A DNA stretch of 54,860 bases. Source: Clostridiales bacterium. Its GTDB lineage: Bacteria > Bacillota > Clostridia > Oscillospirales > Oscillospiraceae. The DNA lies in the NCBI GenBank assembly GCA_021203185.1, contig JAJQBR010000127.1:1-54860 (forward strand). The letters run 5' to 3'. Of this stretch, positions 1-19,859 are shown piece by piece. The position numbers and the translations under genes are program-made. Below the pieces are notes generated by a model. It was not told where the DNA came from, did no database searches, and saw only the letters and a program-made list of their open reading frames with translations. Numbering within the stretch: position 1 is the first letter of the stretch; the number at the start of each line of letters is the position of its first letter.

Positions 1-860
1 GACTTTCCCTCGCCGGGGGAGCAGCTGGTAAAGGCGAACACGTGGTTCTCCGCACCGCAGAACTCGATGTTAGCCCGCAGGGTACGGAAATCCTCCGCGC
101 TGCGGACGGAGCTGCGGGCCGTTCTCCAGGGTACGCTGATACCCTGCTCCTGGTTTTCGTACAGGATGGACCCCAATACGGTCAACCCCAACCGTTCCTC
201 GATGTCGTCAGCGGTGACGATGCGGTCAATGACCACATAGTGGACGCAGACGCCAACCGTCACAAGACAGCAGACCACAAACGCCGCCAGGACAGCGATG
301 AAAAGAGACGAGGTTTCCGGGTCTGTCGGCAGATTGGCCTCCTCGATGACGGTGATGCCCTCCACAGACATACCGTCCTCAATGGCGGAGATGGCGGTGG
401 TACGCAGATAAATGACCAGGTTTCTGGCAGTGATGGGGTCTTTGTCCTCCACAGAGATGCTCAAAATTCGGGTGTCGCTCTGGTTTTCCACAGTCAGCCG
501 CTTGCAAAACGCCTCGTAACTCTCATCCAGGCCGAAAAACGCAATGGTTTGCTCTACTACGGTGCGTCCCTGGATGATTTCAATGTAGTCGTTGGTCAGT
601 TGCTGTCCCACTTCCAGGTCAGAATAGGTGATGGTGTTCTCATCACTCTGGGGCAGGACATAGATCTTGGTTGTGGAGACATAATCGGGGCCGATCACAT
701 TCGCATAGAGCAAAAAGGAGGCCAACCCTGCCAGCACACCACACAACAGGACAAGGGGCAGCTTGTCCAGCAGCTCCATAAACAACGATTTGAAGTTGAT
801 GGAGAGATAGGTGGGGCGGAGCGCGAGATCCTGTCGTTCCGCTTCTTCCATTACGTTCAT
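1..860 (-). CDS. Wzz/YveK-type chain-length determinant fused to (or reading into) a BY-kinase domain; truncated by window edge
   Basis: Minus-strand reading from ATG at 860 (AAAGGAG upstream) gives MNVMEEAERQDLALRPTYLSINFKSLFMELLDKLPLVLLCGVLAGLASFLLYANVIGPDYVSTTKIYVLPQ..., with a second TM segment and a terminal FTSCSPGEGK Walker A-like motif at the window edge. It is open at position 1. Confidence 0.85.
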   Translation of the reverse strand, partial: MNVMEEAERQDLALRPTYLSINFKSLFMELLDKLPLVLLCGVLAGLASFLLYANVIGPDYVSTTKIYVLPQSDENTITYSDLEVGQQLTNDYIEIIQGRTVVEQTIAFFGLDESYEAFCKRLTVENQSDTRILSISVEDKDPITARNLVIYLRTTAISAIEDGMSVEGITVIEEANLPTDPETSSLFIAVLAAFVVCCLVTVGVCVHYVVIDRIVTADDIEERLGLTVLGSILYENQEQGISVPWRTARSSVRSAEDFRTLRANIEFCGAENHVFAFTSCSPGEGK

Positions 861-979: not shown

Positions 980-2401
980 CTATGCGCGCTTGATTTTGCC
1001 GATGGCGGTTTTCTCAAACGGCGTATCCCGGAACTCCAGAAAATGAATCTGTTTGTAGGAGGGAAGGGCGTCGTTCTGTTCCTCCAGGAAGTCCTCCACC
1101 GCTTTCCGTGCGGACGCGGTGTTCTCCGTGGGAAAGATTTCCGCGCAAAGGAAGTTGTTTTTCTCCTTGACAAGGGCCTCTTCCACAAAGGGACATTCCC
1201 GCAGCATCGCTTCCAACCCCTCCGGGCTGACGTTCTCCCCGTTGGACAGGATAATCAGGTTTTTCTTCCTCCCGGTCAGATAATAGTGGCCGTTTTCATT
1301 CACCCGGCTCAGGTCGCCGGTGTGATACCAGCCGTCGGTCAGCACGGCGGCGGTGGCCTCTGGGTCGTTGTAATACCCCATCATAACGGTGTCGCCCCGC
1401 AGGAGCAGCTCGCCATCCTCGATTTTGGCCTCCAGAACCTCGTCAATGGGGCCGAGGCAGGAGGGATCGTCTAAATCCACCGGGTGGATAATGCCGTGTC
1501 CGCCCGTTTCCGAGGCGGAATAGACGTGCCAAAGCTCGATGTTGTGTTCCGCGAAGATTTGCGCCGCATCCTCCGGGAATTTGGCGCCGCCGCAGAATAG
1601 CATCCGCAGCTTCCCCAGTGGGTTTTTTCCCGGCTTCGCCGCACGCAGCCGCTGGGCCAGAAGTTCCATCATCTCCGGCACGACGAACATATATTCCGGC
1701 TCCCCGGCCCGGAGATACCGCATCGTATATTTTGGGCTTTTCCCAATGAAGTTGGTGGAGCCGCGGGGGAGGAAATCCGCCGCCACGCTGAAGCCGGCCA
1801 GATGGTGGTAGGGCATGACGGTCAACCCAGTCTCAAAGGAGCGGTACGGCTTGACCATCGTCCAAAAATCGACCAGCAGCGCCTTGACGGACAGCATGAC
1901 CGCTTTCGCGTCCCCTGTGGTGCCGGAGGTGAACAGGATGCAGCCCAGCGTCTCCGGGTCCCTCGCGGGGATGGGAACCCCGGAGGCCGGGACGGCGGTC
2001 TTGACCATCGGCACTGCGCGGAGGCCCTCCTCTGTCGGCACTTTTCGGAGCGCCGCTTCATCGCCTACCACCGTAAAGGTGTCCGTCTTTTTGCAGTATT
2101 CAGCGACCTCCCGGGGGTTCAAATCCAGGCTGAGCAGGATTGGCACCGCGCCGGCCTCCAGCAGCGCATAAAAGGAGAGCAGCCAGAGGTAAGAGTTTTC
2201 CCCCATCAGGCCGATATGCTGGTTTGCGTAGCCGCTGCGCACAAAGTCCTCAGCCTGGGCCGCCAGGTCGCTGAAAAACGTCTCTGCGGAAACCGATACG
2301 ACCTGGGAATCTTCCATATACTTGAATACGGGCAGCCCGGTCTCGGCATATTTTTCTTTTGAACGTTGAAAAAACTCATGAAACGTGGTTGGAACAGACA
2401 T
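980..2401 (-). CDS. AMP-dependent acyl synthetase/ligase (ANL superfamily)
   Basis: 473 aa; contains LGCILFTSGTTGDAKAVMLS (AMP-binding P-loop), YSASETGGHG, DGWYHTGDLSRVNENGHYYLTGRKKNLIILSNGENVSPE and terminal KTAIGKIKR. Confidence 0.93.
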   Translation of the reverse strand: MSVPTTFHEFFQRSKEKYAETGLPVFKYMEDSQVVSVSAETFFSDLAAQAEDFVRSGYANQHIGLMGENSYLWLLSFYALLEAGAVPILLSLDLNPREVAEYCKKTDTFTVVGDEAALRKVPTEEGLRAVPMVKTAVPASGVPIPARDPETLGCILFTSGTTGDAKAVMLSVKALLVDFWTMVKPYRSFETGLTVMPYHHLAGFSVAADFLPRGSTNFIGKSPKYTMRYLRAGEPEYMFVVPEMMELLAQRLRAAKPGKNPLGKLRMLFCGGAKFPEDAAQIFAEHNIELWHVYSASETGGHGIIHPVDLDDPSCLGPIDEVLEAKIEDGELLLRGDTVMMGYYNDPEATAAVLTDGWYHTGDLSRVNENGHYYLTGRKKNLIILSNGENVSPEGLEAMLRECPFVEEALVKEKNNFLCAEIFPTENTASARKAVEDFLEEQNDALPSYKQIHFLEFRDTPFEKTAIGKIKRA

Positions 2402-2453
2402 TTTTGTTCTCCTTCCTGCTAAAACGAGGGTGGTTTGCCTCTTGCGGTCTGCC

Positions 2454-3380
2454 TTACTTGACGTAAGTGTTCAGAAAAGCGTCGCAGACGGGAATCAGAG
2501 AGCCGTTTTGCACACTGTGGGTCATGCCGACGATTCGTTCGTACTGCACCTCGACACCGGCCTCCAACAGCGCATCGTAAAAAAGATCCGATATGGTCAT
2601 AGGCACTGTGGCATCCTCTGTGCCGTGGACAATCAGGACGGGCATCATGTCGCTGCTGATGTTGTACATCACGTCAAATTTGTGAATCTCCGTGATGATG
2701 TCGGAGTCCTCCGTCCCATCGACCACCTCCGGGTGTTCGATGAAGTAGGTCAGGATTTCCCCTTCGCTATAATAGAGTAGGTGTTCCAGGTTGGTGGGGC
2801 CAAAGATGTCGATGGCCGCAGTGATGGTGAACGCATACTGCTCCGGGTCCGCCGTATACTCCTCCGCGAAGCGCAGAGCCAGCTGCGCCCCCGCCGAATC
2901 GCCCAGGACGACGACGTTGGAGGGGTCGATTTCATAGGTTTCCGCGTTGGCGACCAGGTAGGAGACAGCGTCGCTGACACACTCCACTTCCCCCATCAGC
3001 GTGGTGTCCGGGTACAGGTCGTAGTCGATGGTGGCCACCACATACCCCTCCGCCGAGAAGGTGTAGAGGAAGGAGTTCAGCTCCGAGCGCTGGCCGGAGG
3101 TCCAGCTTCCGCCGTGGACGCAGACCATCAGCGGCTTTGCCTCGCCGGTCTGCTGATACGCCACGTCCATATAGCAGTTGGTATCCTTCTCACCGGGCCG
3201 ATAACAGACATCCTCCGCCGCTGTCACATCGTCCCCGTAGGCAGTGCGAATTTCGATATCCGATGCGTCCGTTTTGGCAGTACGGGGCCAGAGAAGGAAC
3301 ACAGCCGCAACCACACAACAGAGCGCGGCGACCCCTGCCAGGGCGAACAGCCAAACGCGCTTTTGCTTGATACGTTCCAT
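2454..3380 (-). CDS. Membrane-anchored alpha/beta hydrolase/esterase
   Basis: ORF with N-terminal TM anchor (KRVWLFALAGVAALCCVVAAVFLLW), VHGGSWTSGQRSE oxyanion motif and VVLGDSAGAQLALR nucleophile elbow. Confidence 0.88.
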   Translation of the reverse strand: MERIKQKRVWLFALAGVAALCCVVAAVFLLWPRTAKTDASDIEIRTAYGDDVTAAEDVCYRPGEKDTNCYMDVAYQQTGEAKPLMVCVHGGSWTSGQRSELNSFLYTFSAEGYVVATIDYDLYPDTTLMGEVECVSDAVSYLVANAETYEIDPSNVVVLGDSAGAQLALRFAEEYTADPEQYAFTITAAIDIFGPTNLEHLLYYSEGEILTYFIEHPEVVDGTEDSDIITEIHKFDVMYNISSDMMPVLIVHGTEDATVPMTISDLFYDALLEAGVEVQYERIVGMTHSVQNGSLIPVCDAFLNTYVK

Positions 3381-3386
3381 CGGCAA

Positions 3387-3632
3387 TCACACCAGCTTGC
3401 TCAGGATGAACTGCTGCAAGTCCCCCACGGTCACGATTTTGGAGAGCTTCCGGGTGGGGATGCGCACGTCAAATTCCTCCTCCAGGTCGGAGATCAGCGC
3501 CAGAATCGCCAGGGAACTCATGCCCAGATCCTCCAGCAGTTTGGATTCCGGAGTGATTTCGGTTCCCTCGGCGAAATCGAAGGAATCGCGGACGATTTCT
3601 ACTACTTTGTCGTTAAATTCAGCTACAGTCAT
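3387..3632 (-). CDS. Acyl carrier protein
   Basis: 81 aa acidic protein with LLEDLGMSSLAILALISDLEEEFDVRI, a phosphopantetheine-Ser context. Confidence 0.88.
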   Translation of the reverse strand: MTVAEFNDKVVEIVRDSFDFAEGTEITPESKLLEDLGMSSLAILALISDLEEEFDVRIPTRKLSKIVTVGDLQQFILSKLV

Positions 3633-3733
3633 TTTGGATACCTCGTTTCTGCGTACAACTGTGGGAGCGAACGTCGCCCAAAGGCAAAGGGCTGCGGATG
3701 CACCCTTCGCCGGGAAGGGAATCTATAGAGGAT

Positions 3734-4822
3734 CTACAGTTCAATGGTCACTTTTTTCCTGCCGCGTCTGCGGAACTTCCGCAGCAGTTCCCGTCCCGTC
3801 TGGAGACCCGCAAAGACGACTGCGATAAACGCGGTGCGGGCCGCAAACATCAGCACCGTCTGGAGGAAGATGCTGTTGGGGAACCATTCCAGAAATTTGT
3901 AATTGGGCAGGATGACTTTTTCAAAAGCGTGGATGCAGATGATCCAGATGTTGTTCATCCCGATGGCGGCGAAGAAGCGGTTGCCAGCGGTATCAATGGT
4001 TCTGGCGGTGAGCCAGTCAAAGAAGAACAGCAGGAGAACGCTCAGGCAGGAGAGACCGAGGACATCCAGCAGGCCGCCGTTTAACTCGCCCCGAATCAGG
4101 TCGGTATGGCTGCGCAAAAAGGTGTTCAGGCTCAGGGCTGCGAGAATCAGCAGCGGAACCAGCGGCAGCTTTTTGTCCAGCAGGTGTTCTTCCCGGATCA
4201 GGTTGCCCAGGGCCACCCAGCCGGTGGCCATCAGGCCGATGTGGACGACAAAGGGCCACACCGAGGAGAACCGCATCATGCAGTAGCCCAGCAGCGTGCA
4301 GGCCAGGGAGAGGCCATAGGTGAGCCGCCGGTCTTTCAGGTGGGCCAGGCAGTTGAACAGGCAGCGGGCCTCAAAGAGCGCCAACAGGAACCACAAAATG
4401 CTGACGCTCTCAACCGGGATGCCGAACAGCGTACCGCCCCCCTCGACGTTCAGCCCCAAGGCGTAGGTCAGAAGGTATTCTCCCCCGTGTTCCCAAAACG
4501 AACGGCGGCGCACAAAGGAGAGGATCAGCTTTGCCAGCAGCACCGCCGCCGCCGTAATGTAGTAGGGCTTCAGCAGGGTGCGAAAGTGGAAGGAAAGCGC
4601 TTTTCTGGCGGGCGACGGGGTGAACCCGTAGCCGCTGAGCAGGAAAAAGAGTACCATGTAGGCGGAGCCGAGGACAGAAAACCACCCGTAAAACACGAAG
4701 TTGGAATAGAAATAATCGCTGTTAAAGGAAATGGTGTGGACTAAGATCACCATGATCATTCCATACCCGTAAATTGCGTTGAAATAACCCAGACCTCTCT
4801 GTGTCTGACGATGTTCCGACAT
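3734..4822 (-). CDS. Acyltransferase family 3 membrane protein
   Basis: 362 aa multi-TM; YGYGMIMVILVHT and LVHTISFNSDYFYSNFVFYGWFSVLGSAYMVLFFLLSGYGF are typical of the acyltransferase-3 fold. Confidence 0.85.
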   Translation of the reverse strand: MSEHRQTQRGLGYFNAIYGYGMIMVILVHTISFNSDYFYSNFVFYGWFSVLGSAYMVLFFLLSGYGFTPSPARKALSFHFRTLLKPYYITAAAVLLAKLILSFVRRRSFWEHGGEYLLTYALGLNVEGGGTLFGIPVESVSILWFLLALFEARCLFNCLAHLKDRRLTYGLSLACTLLGYCMMRFSSVWPFVVHIGLMATGWVALGNLIREEHLLDKKLPLVPLLILAALSLNTFLRSHTDLIRGELNGGLLDVLGLSCLSVLLLFFFDWLTARTIDTAGNRFFAAIGMNNIWIICIHAFEKVILPNYKFLEWFPNSIFLQTVLMFAARTAFIAVVFAGLQTGRELLRKFRRRGRKKVTIEL

Positions 4823-4825
4823 TGG

Positions 4826-6277
4826 TTATTCCTCCCCAGTTCCGTTTTTGAGCAGGGCCAGCAGCGGCTTTCTTTTCCAAATCCCTACCAGTCCCGCCAG
4901 CAAAAACACCACATACCGCACATATCCCAGCCGGTAGAGGGCCATCATGGCAAAGCAGCCCAAAATCACTGCCGCAGTCAGGACGGCGAGCTTCTTTTCC
5001 GCGAACACGGTTTCCGCTACCTCGTGGCGGCGGCAGGCCCGCTTCATCACAAGAAAGTGGAGCAGGGTCAGCAGCGCATAGCTCACCAGCGTCGTCCACC
5101 CGGCGGCCAGGAAGCCGAACAGGGGAATGAAGATGGCGTTGAGTACCAGATTGGCCCCCGCGCTGATAATAGAAACCGCCGGAATCAGCCGGGTCTCCCC
5201 GTAAAACATCTCTACATTAGCGAAGAGCATATACAGAAACACGAAAAAGACGCTTGCCGCCACCGGCGGGATGACCCAAATGGCGCTCTGGTATTCCCCG
5301 GTGGCCAGCAGCGCCACCAGGTCAGGGGCGAACGCCGTCATCAGGAGAACCACCACGCCCAGCATCAGGCAAATCAACGTGGACTGCTTCCGAATGTCGG
5401 CATAGTCGCTGACCTTGAGCTTTTTGTACATCCACGGGTTGTAGGAGCCGTTGATGGCGGACACCAGCAGCAGGGTCAGCGTGGCGGCGGAGTAGGCCAC
5501 CGAGTAAATGGCGGTGCTGCCCGTCCCCTCGTAGTAGTTAATCATAATGCGGTCCGCCTGGTTCAGCACCGTCTGGGACAGGTAGTAGAAAATGAGCGGC
5601 AGATTGAACCGCAGGGCGAACTTCCAGTAAGTCGCATCAAAGAACTTCCCGCCCTTTTTCAGCAGGTAAACGTACAGCGCCGCCCCCAATACACCCTGCA
5701 CCGCTACGGTGGCGATGATGCGGGCCTCTGCCTTGTAGGGGGTACACAGCACCGCCACAACCGCGATGACAGGCGAGACGATGGTGCTGGCGACGGTGAC
5801 GGCCACCGGCGCACGATAGCGGAAGTCGAACCGCTCCCGGTTGGTCCAGAGGTACAGCGGGGGGTTGAAGAAAATCTCCACGAACATCAGCCCCATCAGC
5901 AGGGAAGAGAGGCCGATGAACTGGTCGATCCACTGCCGGAACAGCAGGTACACCGCCAGCCACCCCAGGGTCATAACCGAAATCAGCCCTGCGATGGAGG
6001 AAACGTACCCGTCCTTGTCCTCCTCGTACCGAATCAGGCCGTTGTTCAGTCCCTCATAGGGCAGCTTCAGCGAGGTGAGTACCACCAGCAGCTCGAACCA
6101 GGTCTGGTAGACGCTGTAGACGCCGTACTCCTGGGTGGTCAGCAGCCGGGTGAAGATGGGAACGGTGATAAACGCGGTACCCCGCTGGAGAAAGTTGCAG
6201 ATGGTAAAATAGATGGAAGTTTTTTTTGCGTCTGACAGCCGCCGGTAGGCGGTTTTCAGGGTGTCAGGCCACTTCAT
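4826..6277 (-). CDS. Polysaccharide biosynthesis flippase (Wzx/MATE-like)
   Basis: About 483 aa multi-TM; KTSIYFTICNFLQRGTAFITVPIFTRLLTTQEYGVYSVYQTW is typical of polysaccharide flippases. ORF extends to 6322; MKWPDTL start preferred. Confidence 0.9.
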   Translation of the reverse strand: MKWPDTLKTAYRRLSDAKKTSIYFTICNFLQRGTAFITVPIFTRLLTTQEYGVYSVYQTWFELLVVLTSLKLPYEGLNNGLIRYEEDKDGYVSSIAGLISVMTLGWLAVYLLFRQWIDQFIGLSSLLMGLMFVEIFFNPPLYLWTNRERFDFRYRAPVAVTVASTIVSPVIAVVAVLCTPYKAEARIIATVAVQGVLGAALYVYLLKKGGKFFDATYWKFALRFNLPLIFYYLSQTVLNQADRIMINYYEGTGSTAIYSVAYSAATLTLLLVSAINGSYNPWMYKKLKVSDYADIRKQSTLICLMLGVVVLLMTAFAPDLVALLATGEYQSAIWVIPPVAASVFFVFLYMLFANVEMFYGETRLIPAVSIISAGANLVLNAIFIPLFGFLAAGWTTLVSYALLTLLHFLVMKRACRRHEVAETVFAEKKLAVLTAAVILGCFAMMALYRLGYVRYVVFLLAGLVGIWKRKPLLALLKNGTGEE

Positions 6278-7498
6278 AGGCAGGCCCCTCTTCCGATAAC
6301 ACAACGCCAATCCAGAAGCCAAAATAGACGCCGAAGGTGTTGGTAAACGCGGATTCGCCCGTGCTGGAGATTATCAGGTAGATAAAGCACACCAGCGCGG
6401 CGGCGTAGGCGAAGGCGTTGACCAGCCGCAGCCGGGAAAGCCGCCAGAAAATAGCGACCAGCGCCGCGCAGTAGAAAACGGCCCCCAAAATACCCGTCTC
6501 GCCCATCAGATAGGGCCAGAAGGAATCGGAAATAAAGGAGTGGTACGCCTCCGAGATGCCCCAGACGTGGTTGATGTGGTAAAGTTCATAGACTCTGGAA
6601 TATGGCTCAGCGGAAAAGGCGGAGCCGAAGGAAGCAAAGCCGGTCCCCAAAGGGAAATAGTCCCGGACGATTTGGAGCGCCGTGCTGCTCAGCGCTGACC
6701 GGGCAGACTCGTTTTGCAGCGTGACATAATAGTACAGGATGGTGCGGATGCCCAGCAGCAGCCCCCCTGCGCCCAGCATCCCCCACGTCAGAGGACCGAA
6801 GGCGCGGCGGCGTTGACAGATGATTAAAAAGGCGAACACCATAAAGAACACGGCGCAAATCGCCTTGAAACGCAGGGTGCAGACCATAATGGCCCACAGC
6901 GGCAGCAGGCGCAGCAGCACCCTGTCCCCCAAAAACTCGTACATACGGAAGTAAATGGCGCAGAGAAAGCACATGACCGCAGCGCAATAGGTATAGGCGG
7001 AGTAAAACAGCTTCACGGCGCGCAGCCCCGAACGGATGTCCCCCGGAAAGATGTGCAACACCAGATCCGCCAGAAACAGCAGCGTCAGGCAGGCCGTCAC
7101 CACATCCATCAGGCGGATGAGCGCGGCATATCGCTCCGCTTTGTTCCGGTGCATGGTCAGCAGGTAGCCCACGGCGATGGCCGCCGGAAATTTCAGCCAC
7201 ACCAGGATGTCGGAGAGGACATTGGACAGGGGCTGCGAACCGTTCAGCAGGGTGGAAACGCCCCCGTCAGCAGGAACAGCAGCAGCAGCAGCAAAATGAC
7301 AAGGGTGTTGGTCTGAAACCGAAAGCTGAACTGGGTCTGGCAGAGTTCCAGAAAAAACAGAACCACCACGCTCAGCGCCACCAGCTCCTCCAAAGCCCGG
7401 AACGGGCCAATCAGGGTTTGCAGGAGATCCTGAACGCAAAACAGGACAATCAGGCCGCAGAGCAGAATGTCTGGATTTTTTGACTTTTGAGGTAACAT
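6264..7498 (-). pseudogene. O-antigen ligase/Wzy-like polymerase, apparent -1 frameshift at a C5/G5 run near 7261-7265
   Basis: N-terminal frame 7244..7498 (MLPQKSKNPDILLCGLIVLFCVQDLL...LLLLLLFLLTG) is hydrophobic and has its own RBS; the continuation STLLNGSQPLSNVLSDILVWLKFPAAIAVGYLL... is in another frame. One extra G in the G5 run restores a continuous multi-TM protein. Confidence 0.75.
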
Positions 7499-7511
7499 TT
7501 CTCACGGTCCT

Positions 7512-8249
7512 TTATGGCTCTCGGAAAATAACGCCCGGATTTTCCACCAACAGCCTCCAGGCGTATTCCTCGGAACAGCGCCGCAGAAGATAGTCCGCGC
7601 ACGCCTGATAGGAGGCGGGACGCTGGGCGGTGTGGTGGCAGTCGGTCCCTAAAATGTCAATCAGTGTCCCCCGCAGCAGCCGCCGGGCGGCGGCGCGCTC
7701 TACCGGCGGCGCAGGCGGCCCGGCGATGCTGCCCGTGTTCACCTGAACCCAGCCGCCTGCCTCCTTCAACTGCCGAACCAGGCCGGGCCGCGCCTGGATG
7801 CAGGCGTATCGCTCCACGTGGGCCACCAGAGGCCGGTAGCGGTTGGCGGTCAGAATGTCCATTGCCCGGAGCATTTTGGGAAAGGGGACGTCGGGCGCAA
7901 ACTCCAACAGCACGAAGCGGTTCCGCAGGGGGCGGCAGAGATCCTCCGCCAGTGCGCGGATCAGTTCTCCGCTATAAAACACTTCGCTGCCGGGCAGAAT
8001 CCGCAAGTCCAGGCCGAGTTGCCTCGTCAGGGCCTGCACCGCCTCCAACTGCTGCCAGTACCGCTCCGGCGGATACTGCCACAGCCGGGGGCGGTAATGG
8101 GAGGTGGCGAAGATGACGCGGATCCCCTCTCCATACGCCTGCCGCAGCAGGGCCTCCGCCTCAGCCATGGTTTGGGGGCCGTCGTCCAGGCCGGGGAGGA
8201 TGTGCGCGTGAAAGTCAATCAGCCCGGACAGCGGCTCTTTACCGCTCAT
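7512..8249 (-). CDS. PHP-family protein-tyrosine phosphatase (CpsB/CapC/YwqE type)
   Basis: IDFHAHILPGLDDGPQT, ATSHYRP, LVAHVERYA, DILGTDCHHTAQR metal-binding motifs. MSGKEPL start preferred. Confidence 0.93.
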   Translation of the reverse strand: MSGKEPLSGLIDFHAHILPGLDDGPQTMAEAEALLRQAYGEGIRVIFATSHYRPRLWQYPPERYWQQLEAVQALTRQLGLDLRILPGSEVFYSGELIRALAEDLCRPLRNRFVLLEFAPDVPFPKMLRAMDILTANRYRPLVAHVERYACIQARPGLVRQLKEAGGWVQVNTGSIAGPPAPPVERAAARRLLRGTLIDILGTDCHHTAQRPASYQACADYLLRRCSEEYAWRLLVENPGVIFREP

Positions 8250-18006: not shown

Positions 18007-19662
18007 TTACCCATTCTCCATCCGCTGGATGGCGGCCAGAATGGACGGCACCGTCTGCTTTTTGCGGCTCAAAACGCCGGGGAGCCGGGCTATGCCGTCG
18101 GCGCAGTCCACGTGGAACGCCTGCCGGACGATTTCCTCGCCGCCCTCGCCTTCGTAGAGCAGCAGGGTGGACTCGTCCATGATGTCGGTGAGCATCAGGA
18201 ACACCACGTCCAGGCGGCTGCGCGCGCGCACCTGGGCCATCTGGGGCTGCATCCGGCGGCAGAGGGCATCGCGGGCCTCCTCCCCCAGGGTGCTGACCTG
18301 GCCCACACCGATGCGGTAGGGGTCGGCCTGGAAGGTTTTGAAGTCCTGGAAGAAAATCTCTTCCTCGCTTTTCCCGTCCAGGCAGCTCCCCGCCTGAAAC
18401 ATGGCCATCGCCAGCTCATCGATTTCCACGTCGGCCCGTTTCGCCAGCTTTTTGGCGATTTTCCGGTCCTCCGGGGTGCTGGTGGGGGAGCGGAAAGCCA
18501 GCGTGTCGGACAAAATCGCCGCCAGCAGCAGCCCCGCCGTGGTCTTGTCCAGCTTGACATCGTTCTCCTTGTAGAGCATGGCGATGATGGTGGCGGTGCA
18601 GCCCAACGGCTCGTTGCGGAAGTAGACCGGGTGGATGGTCTCGATGGTGGAGCCGATGCGGTGGTGGTCGATGACCTCCGTCACCTCGGCGAAGCCGATG
18701 CCGTCCACCGCTTGGCTCTTTTCGTTGTGGTCTACCAGAATGACCTGGCGCTTTTCCAGGTTCATCAGATCCCGGCGGGAGATAAGGCCCACATAGCCGC
18801 CGTTCCGGTCCGTCACAGGGAACCAGCGGAACCGCCGCCGGGACATGACGCTCTGGATGTCCGCCACGAACTCGTCCTCCCGGAAGGAGACCAGGTTCTC
18901 GGTGCGCATGATATGCCCCACCGGGACGGCCTGGGTCACCAGCCGGGCCGCAGCGTAGCTGTCGCAGGGGGTGGAGAGCAGCACACAGTCCCGCCCCTTT
19001 GCCAGTTCCAGCACATCGGGGGCCACTGCCGCGCCGCCGCACACCACCAGCCAACCGGCCCCGGCCTCCAGCGCGGCTCGCTGGACCTCCGGCCGGTCCC
19101 CAGTGATGACCAGGTCGCCGGGCTGCACCTGCCCGGCCAGCCGTGCCGGGCTGTCGGTGGCAATAATCACCTGCCCCTGGGCGAAGGGCCGTTCCGGCTC
19201 TCCCAGCAGCAGCGTTCCGTTCAGGGTGTCCACGATGCTGCGGCAGCGTGCGCCGGAGGCCGACAGGGCGCGGAGGTTCTGCTCCGCCAGGTAGAAACAG
19301 GCGATGTCCCCAGCGCTGACCATGCCCCGGACGGCGCCGTCCACCACCACGGGCTGAGTGTCGGCCCCCTGGGCCTGCATCTGTTCCCAGGCTTCTTTTA
19401 AGGTCAGCTCCGGGGTCAGACTGCCAGTCTCCTGAATCTGGATCTCTGACACGCGGGGTTCCAGCGTGTCCAGATAGCCGGGTGACTTCACCCCAAAGCG
19501 GCGCAGGACATAACGGGTCTCCCCGTTCAGCTGGCCCGCCCGCTTGGGTACAAACCGCCGCCCCGTCAGAATCTCCTTCAAACGGGCGTAGGCGATGGCG
19601 GAGCAGATGGTGTCGGTGTCCGGGTTCTTGTGTCCGATGACGTAGGTGACGGCGTGGTTCAA
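18007..19662 (-). CDS. Manganese-dependent inorganic pyrophosphatase, CBS/DRTGG-regulated family II (paralog of 14292..15953)
   Basis: TYVIGHKNPDTDTICSAIAYARLKE, VILVDHNEKSQAVDG, VTEVIDHHRIGSTIETIHPVYFRNEPLGCTATI. TTG start preferred. Confidence 0.92.
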   Translation of the reverse strand: MNHAVTYVIGHKNPDTDTICSAIAYARLKEILTGRRFVPKRAGQLNGETRYVLRRFGVKSPGYLDTLEPRVSEIQIQETGSLTPELTLKEAWEQMQAQGADTQPVVVDGAVRGMVSAGDIACFYLAEQNLRALSASGARCRSIVDTLNGTLLLGEPERPFAQGQVIIATDSPARLAGQVQPGDLVITGDRPEVQRAALEAGAGWLVVCGGAAVAPDVLELAKGRDCVLLSTPCDSYAAARLVTQAVPVGHIMRTENLVSFREDEFVADIQSVMSRRRFRWFPVTDRNGGYVGLISRRDLMNLEKRQVILVDHNEKSQAVDGIGFAEVTEVIDHHRIGSTIETIHPVYFRNEPLGCTATIIAMLYKENDVKLDKTTAGLLLAAILSDTLAFRSPTSTPEDRKIAKKLAKRADVEIDELAMAMFQAGSCLDGKSEEEIFFQDFKTFQADPYRIGVGQVSTLGEEARDALCRRMQPQMAQVRARSRLDVVFLMLTDIMDESTLLLYEGEGGEEIVRQAFHVDCADGIARLPGVLSRKKQTVPSILAAIQRMENG

Positions 19663-19859
19663 GGGGGTTCCCTCCATTGGCAAGAATCATTTTAACTATT
19701 GTAACATCTTTACCGAAACAGTGCAAGGCGCCGGAGAGAAATCTCGCCAAAACAAACGACAGCGGAGAGGGAATCGCTCCCCCTCCGCTCATGGATTTTA
19801 TGGGTATCTCTTTGCATCAGCCCCATTGGTGCGCTGCGCGCCATGACTGGTTGTTCGCT

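Follow-up and report, generated by a model that had tools for sequence, protein, structure and literature searches.

Introduction

Two schemes for the acylation of bacterial polymers have been described. In the first, membrane-bound O-acyltransferases (MBOAT) act together with SGNH proteins, and the acyl group comes from a carrier protein in the Dlt system and from acyl-coenzyme A (acyl-CoA) in the others; the second relies on acyltransferase-3 (AT3)-SGNH proteins, which use acyl-CoA (PMC12148441). In this study we analysed a four-gene module, composed of genes for an AT3 membrane protein, an acyl carrier protein (ACP), a membrane-anchored hydrolase and an adenylate-forming ligase, which is located in a 54,860-nucleotide stretch of DNA from a Clostridiales bacterium (contig JAJQBR010000127.1, contig 161 of a draft genome of 2.48 Mb; hereafter referred to as the window). 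The module is probably a system of surface-glycan acylation, in which the carrier protein, and not coenzyme A, feeds the AT3. No description of a carrier-linked or ACP-fed AT3 module was found in the open-licence full-text literature.

Results

The module consists of four contiguous open reading frames (ORFs) of the same orientation, as stated in the initial annotation, which are transcribed in the order AT3, carrier, hydrolase, ligase:

3734..4822, minus strand: AT3 (acyltransferase-3/TmAT) membrane protein, 362 aa (Pfam PF01757, AlphaFold model, clade tree)
3387..3632, minus strand: acyl carrier protein, 81 aa (PF00550, NCBIfam acyl carrier protein models, ACP matches in PDB)
2454..3380, minus strand: membrane-anchored alpha/beta hydrolase of the BD-FAE/HSL type, 308 aa (PF20434/PF07859, esterase structures)
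980..2401, minus strand: ANL adenylate-forming ligase, 473 aa (PF00501, nearest structures, paralogue tree)

The Pfam scores were 35.2 bits for Acyl_transf_3 (cut-off 31), 40.3 for PP-binding, 116 for BD-FAE and 134 for AMP-binding, the last accompanied by AMP-binding_C_3. The AT3 match, weak but above the threshold, extends over profile positions 9-322 of 326. In comparison with the locus of a sister species (L049), the dN/dS values of all four genes were 0.13-0.23; they are therefore intact, functional genes under purifying selection, and not chance ORFs.

The association of AT3 with a carrier and a ligase recurs in other bacteria. AT3s of this kind are rare in a set of approximately 300 genomes taken from the same family; the search of this set revealed a genome (G157) with a carrier-AT3 pair adjoining a divergent ligase gene, and an order-level search gave two genomes (later recognised as Faecalibacterium) in which AT3 adjoins a ligase-ligase-carrier array. 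All of these were picked by AT3 similarity alone, and the carrier played no part in their choice. When 84,980 species genomes were scanned with five AT3 queries, again on the basis of AT3 only, 38 loci were obtained in Faecalibacterium, Butyrivibrio, Pseudobutyrivibrio and other Oscillospirales and Lachnospiraceae. A carrier gene was located within 3.7 kb of AT3 in 36 of the 38 loci, and a ligase gene within 6 kb in 33; the carrier is thus the more constantly linked partner. The loci devoid of a carrier were L069, which is cut by a contig end, and L085. By comparison, no PP-binding gene was located closer than 4.5 kb to any of 33 other AT3s from 18 genomes; in two cases such a gene lies 5-7 kb away. 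The Fisher test gave a value of approximately 4e-17, a figure which should not be taken literally, since the loci are related.

The arrangement of these genes differs between lineages. In the relatives of the window the order is AT3-carrier-hydrolase-ligase, between a flippase and Wzz. In Faecalibacterium AT3 is divergent from the ligase(s)-carrier genes, with GT4 and LPG_synthase_TM genes nearby, while Pseudobutyrivibrio has the order AT3-carrier-ligase and in Butyrivibrio the AT3-carrier pair lies among GT2, DegT aminotransferase, ABC exporter and WbqC genes. In genera other than Faecalibacterium the carrier gene in most cases directly adjoins AT3, and often overlaps it. The linkage was maintained while the gene order changed, which argues for a functional tie. 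In a tree of 43 linked and 19 ordinary AT3s, the linked proteins formed a single clade (support 0.994), and the carrier-less L085 was placed among the ordinary AT3s. The initial annotation had named conservation of the four-gene order as a test. This order is not the conserved unit: among the related loci the hydrolase is confined to L048-L051, and the conserved core, to judge from these comparisons, is AT3, carrier and ligase, with the exact four-gene set only in close relatives. The carrier gene of the Faecalibacterium modules is followed by a gene for a protein of 404-412 aa (L076 5640-6854, also L046 and L047), whose L076 copy has no Pfam match.

The catalytic His residue of the first transmembrane helix (TM1), His29 in the window AT3, is invariant in all 43 clade members and in the 19 other AT3s. 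A second motif, CxHxxE (C296, H298 and E301), is situated near the end of the protein and is a signature of the clade: its Cys and Glu are each present in 42/43 members, versus 2/19 (Cys) and 0/19 (Glu) ordinary AT3s. A fused SGNH domain is absent from the window protein. The AlphaFold model, built from 29 homologues (pLDDT 83.7), has a predicted TmAT fold, for which HGSNAT ranked above all other structures: seven of the eight best PDB matches were HGSNAT entries (the first match is titled only 'membrane proteins'), with probabilities of 0.82-0.97 but E-values of only 0.04-0.3.

In the window's own branch of the clade, Asn and Tyr occupy the positions at which the usual DxxR motif has Asp and Arg/Lys. 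The usual Arg of this RX10H/DxxR motif was not found in the clade, being replaced by the Tyr in the window branch and by Lys in the remaining members; Lys is also present at this position in several ordinary AT3s. The change is thus a deviation from the usual CoA-binding motif at the level of single residues, and membership of the AT3 family is not lost by it. Simulations of OafB led to the proposal that Arg14 holds the 3'-phosphate of CoA (PMC9833829). The loss of Asp and Arg/Lys in the window branch fits a phosphopantetheine donor, because phosphopantetheine on a carrier is without this 3'-phosphate. As an argument for the whole clade, the loss of CoA-binding residues was dropped, since the Lys of most members is common to ordinary AT3s and only the window branch departs. 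The basic C-terminal tail of AT3 was likewise not adopted as an ACP dock; its mean charge (+5.5 in the clade versus +3.0 in ordinary AT3s) is only suggestive, since the ranges overlap.

The initial annotation had named a phosphopantetheinylatable Ser in the carrier as a test, and this residue is indeed present, as Ser40 of the motif DLGMSSL; it is conserved in all carriers checked. The protein is acidic (16 D/E versus 8 K/R), its best NCBIfam models are fatty-acid-type ACPs, and its PDB matches are also ACPs. One phosphopantetheinyl transferase (PPTase) is encoded in the same genome.

The ligase is complete as an ANL enzyme and contains the catalytic motifs SGTTG, YHTGD and C-terminal GKIKR. 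Among solved structures it is closest to 4-chlorobenzoate and feruloyl/fatty-acyl-CoA ligases (92 bits, versus 58 bits for DltA), which places it, by similarity, in the fatty/aryl-acid type. Tandem ligase genes are present in L048 (11383-14344) and L050 (11452-14385), and single ones in L049 and the window, while AT3, carrier and hydrolase are single-copy in each of these loci. A tree distributed the ligases among three paralogue groups: A and B in L048, B in L049, A and C in L050, and C in the window. Because the paralogues differ between sister species while the other genes stay single, the simplest reading suggests that the ligase is the exchangeable, specificity-setting part around a constant AT3/ACP core. 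No acid could be named from the positions of the ligase pocket, as the segments that bind the acid do not resemble those of the aryl-CoA ligase template and differ from one paralogue to another. Butyryl, considered since these taxa are butyrate producers, was dropped, as no support for it was found in the open-licence literature.

The hydrolase has an N-terminal transmembrane helix, followed by a domain predicted to be extracytoplasmic. Its catalytic residues (HGG oxyanion motif, GDSAG nucleophile, triad Asp and His) are in place. The ORF opens with TTG at 3386; the ATG at 3380, however, is the start that is conserved. Given its narrow distribution, the hydrolase is probably an accessory, lineage-specific part.

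The initial annotation had likened the logic of the module to that of DltA, DltC, DltB and DltD. For the parts themselves this likeness did not hold. No DltA/B/C/D model was among the listed NCBIfam matches (for the ligase, the best 25 of 95), and the carrier gave no match to the DltC model. The module lacks an MBOAT, its transferase belonging to PF01757 and the MBOATs of this genome being encoded on other contigs; nor was DltD found in the scanned neighbourhood, the anchored hydrolase being of the BD-FAE/HSL alpha/beta type and not SGNH. A separate operon on contig 192 of the same genome (L109 = C192:1-9000; 1406-8152) encodes a ligase (best model TIGR03098), a 74-aa carrier, a DltB-like MBOAT (TIGR04091, 158 bits, below the model cut-off) and, in tandem, two mutually similar anchored proteins, of which the one scanned had no NCBIfam match. 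This operon is the Dlt-like system of the cell. The window module appears to follow a Dlt-like logic, but shows none of the Dlt family-specific features sought.

The immediate neighbours of the module are those given in the initial annotation:

4826..6322, minus strand: Wzx-type polysaccharide flippase, directly upstream (PF01943, Polysacc_synt)
3..860, minus strand: Wzz chain-length determinant, downstream, cut by the window end (PF02706)

The final residues of Wzz within the window are the P-loop-like CSPGEGK; the ORF of the sister locus L023 encodes 479 aa. The genes upstream of the module include those for a CpsB phosphatase, a Stealth-type protein and two GT4 glycosyltransferases, and the locus is therefore an exopolysaccharide or capsule locus.

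Several other features were observed in the course of this analysis. Two near-identical GC-rich palindromes (GGGGCTTTGCCCC) are located between the ligase and wzz genes (912-931 and 952-971); on the plus strand a T-rich tail follows one of them. A 458-aa ORF without a Pfam match (18416-19792, minus strand) is flanked by genes for a DUF6688 protein and a solute-binding protein. Ligase-carrier pairs found elsewhere in the family were not accepted as the same system, since most have other partner genes and no AT3 of the clade. In L024 (12473-15566) a second ligase-carrier pair is followed by a gene for a very hydrophobic 381-aa protein without a Pfam match, which may be another carrier-fed membrane transferase. 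A recurrent cluster in several genera (L028, L032, L033 and L035), composed in most of these loci of genes for a ligase-like protein of ~640 aa, short proteins of ~215 aa, a ligase of ~500 aa, a carrier of ~84 aa and a protein of ~345 aa, apparently represents a different carrier system.

Discussion

In the mechanism that we propose, the ligase would adenylate a carboxylic acid, probably fatty, hydroxy or aryl and not D-alanine, and attach it to the phosphopantetheine of its dedicated carrier; the acyl-ACP would feed AT3, and a glycan would be O-acylated outside the membrane. The conserved AT3-carrier-ligase linkage lends good support to the general scheme of the initial annotation (activation, loading of a carrier and transfer across the membrane, AT3 taking the place of MBOAT). 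We incline, with some reserve, to the more specific view that the AT3s of this clade take the acyl group directly from their dedicated carrier and that exchangeable ligases set the acid placed on the surface glycan. The anchored hydrolase, acting outside the membrane, would most likely edit or remove esters, like Ape1 of the Pat system; a role as the final transferase, as for DltD, is less likely.

Several points weigh against direct feeding by the carrier. Linkage is no proof of a direct donor, and the ACP could pass its acyl group to CoA or to another enzyme. The 36 loci are not independent of one another, since many members of the clade come from Faecalibacterium and are close relatives, and the ligase is not always local (L064 and L075 have none in reach). 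Acyl-CoA is the donor of those AT3 enzymes for which a donor is known, and a review argues in its favour and explicitly against ACP (PMC9558356). Moreover, most of the clade retains Asp and Lys at the DxxR positions, the Lys corresponding to Arg14, and ANL ligases of the window type commonly make CoA thioesters. These facts would suit an ordinary acyl-CoA-dependent O-acyltransferase, with ligase and ACP acting upstream (from ligase to ACP to CoA, or in a short ACP-bound synthesis). We consider this explanation unlikely: a dedicated carrier is not required for a CoA route, yet it is the most constant partner of AT3, and neither a ketosynthase nor a reductase was noted in the neighbourhoods that were scanned. 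It is very improbable that AT3 adjoins, only by chance, a ligase and a carrier of some small-molecule (NRPS-like) pathway. The family is rich in ligase-carrier pairs of various kinds, several of them beside other proteins, but the linkage extends across a deep AT3 clade in varied gene orders and was not seen with other AT3s. A true Dlt-type system for D-alanylation of teichoic acid, built of divergent parts, would have its functions distributed in the same way (over a ligase, a carrier, a multi-pass membrane transferase and an anchored Ser hydrolase); it is nevertheless barely credible, considering the lack of Dlt models among the listed matches, the fatty/aryl affinity of the ligase, the TmAT-like transferase and the separate MBOAT-containing Dlt-like operon.

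As regards the acceptor, a flipped or polymerising exopolysaccharide unit would fit the position of the window module. The initial annotation had likewise suggested exopolysaccharide as the decorated polymer; the Wzx/Wzz surroundings agree with this proposal, for which locus context is the evidence. A lipid-linked or free glycolipid, and not the exopolysaccharide of the module's own locus, is a possible though less probable acceptor, and one compatible with carrier feeding. It would account for the Faecalibacterium module, which adjoins GT4 and LPG_synthase_TM flippase-like genes and no Wzx/Wzy locus, and for that of Pseudobutyrivibrio, which lies outside any polysaccharide locus; the latter also counts against a general tie to exopolysaccharide. 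In the window and its relatives, however, the module lies between flippase and Wzz, and in Butyrivibrio among capsule-type genes.

If carrier feeding is correct, AT3 plus carrier completes a fourth combination, beside MBOAT with CoA, MBOAT with carrier and AT3 with CoA. An AT3 clade tied to a carrier and a ligase also makes the assumption of an acyl-CoA donor directly testable. The module points to a chemical modification, hitherto uncharacterised, of the surfaces of Faecalibacterium, Butyrivibrio and Pseudobutyrivibrio cells. These genera are common in the gut and rumen, and their surface glycans are turned towards the host or the fibre. The swapping of ligases among sister species suggests that the acid, and hence surface chemistry, varies between close relatives.

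Comparison with known systems

The Dlt pathway comprises the ligase DltA, the carrier DltC, the MBOAT protein DltB, the microprotein DltX and the SGNH protein DltD. In its proposed mode of action the window module shares with Dlt an adenylated acid, a dedicated phosphopantetheine carrier, a multi-pass acyltransferase working across the membrane and an extracytoplasmic polymer. It differs in having an AT3/TmAT protein in place of MBOAT, a ligase of the fatty/aryl type and a fatty-acid-type ACP; in addition, its alpha/beta hydrolase is an accessory of one lineage only, whereas DltD is an SGNH protein. The peptidoglycan O-acetylation operon PatA/PatB/Ape1 likewise encodes a membrane acyltransferase together with an esterase acting outside the cytoplasm (PMC12148441), but it consists of MBOAT and SGNH proteins, uses an acyl-CoA donor and has no carrier. 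HGSNAT, of the TmAT superfamily, is the nearest fold to the predicted AT3 structure; it is, however, a lysosomal acetyl-CoA enzyme with a sequence identity of ~12%. With the AT3 and AT3-SGNH enzymes (OatA, OafB, ExoH/ExoZ and IcaC) the window protein shares the AT3 domain, the essential TM1 His, an association with surface glycans and, often, a location in polysaccharide loci. These enzymes are fed by acyl-CoA as far as is known (PMC9558356, PMC12148441), whereas the AT3 clade described here is linked to a carrier and a ligase of its own and is marked by CxHxxE.

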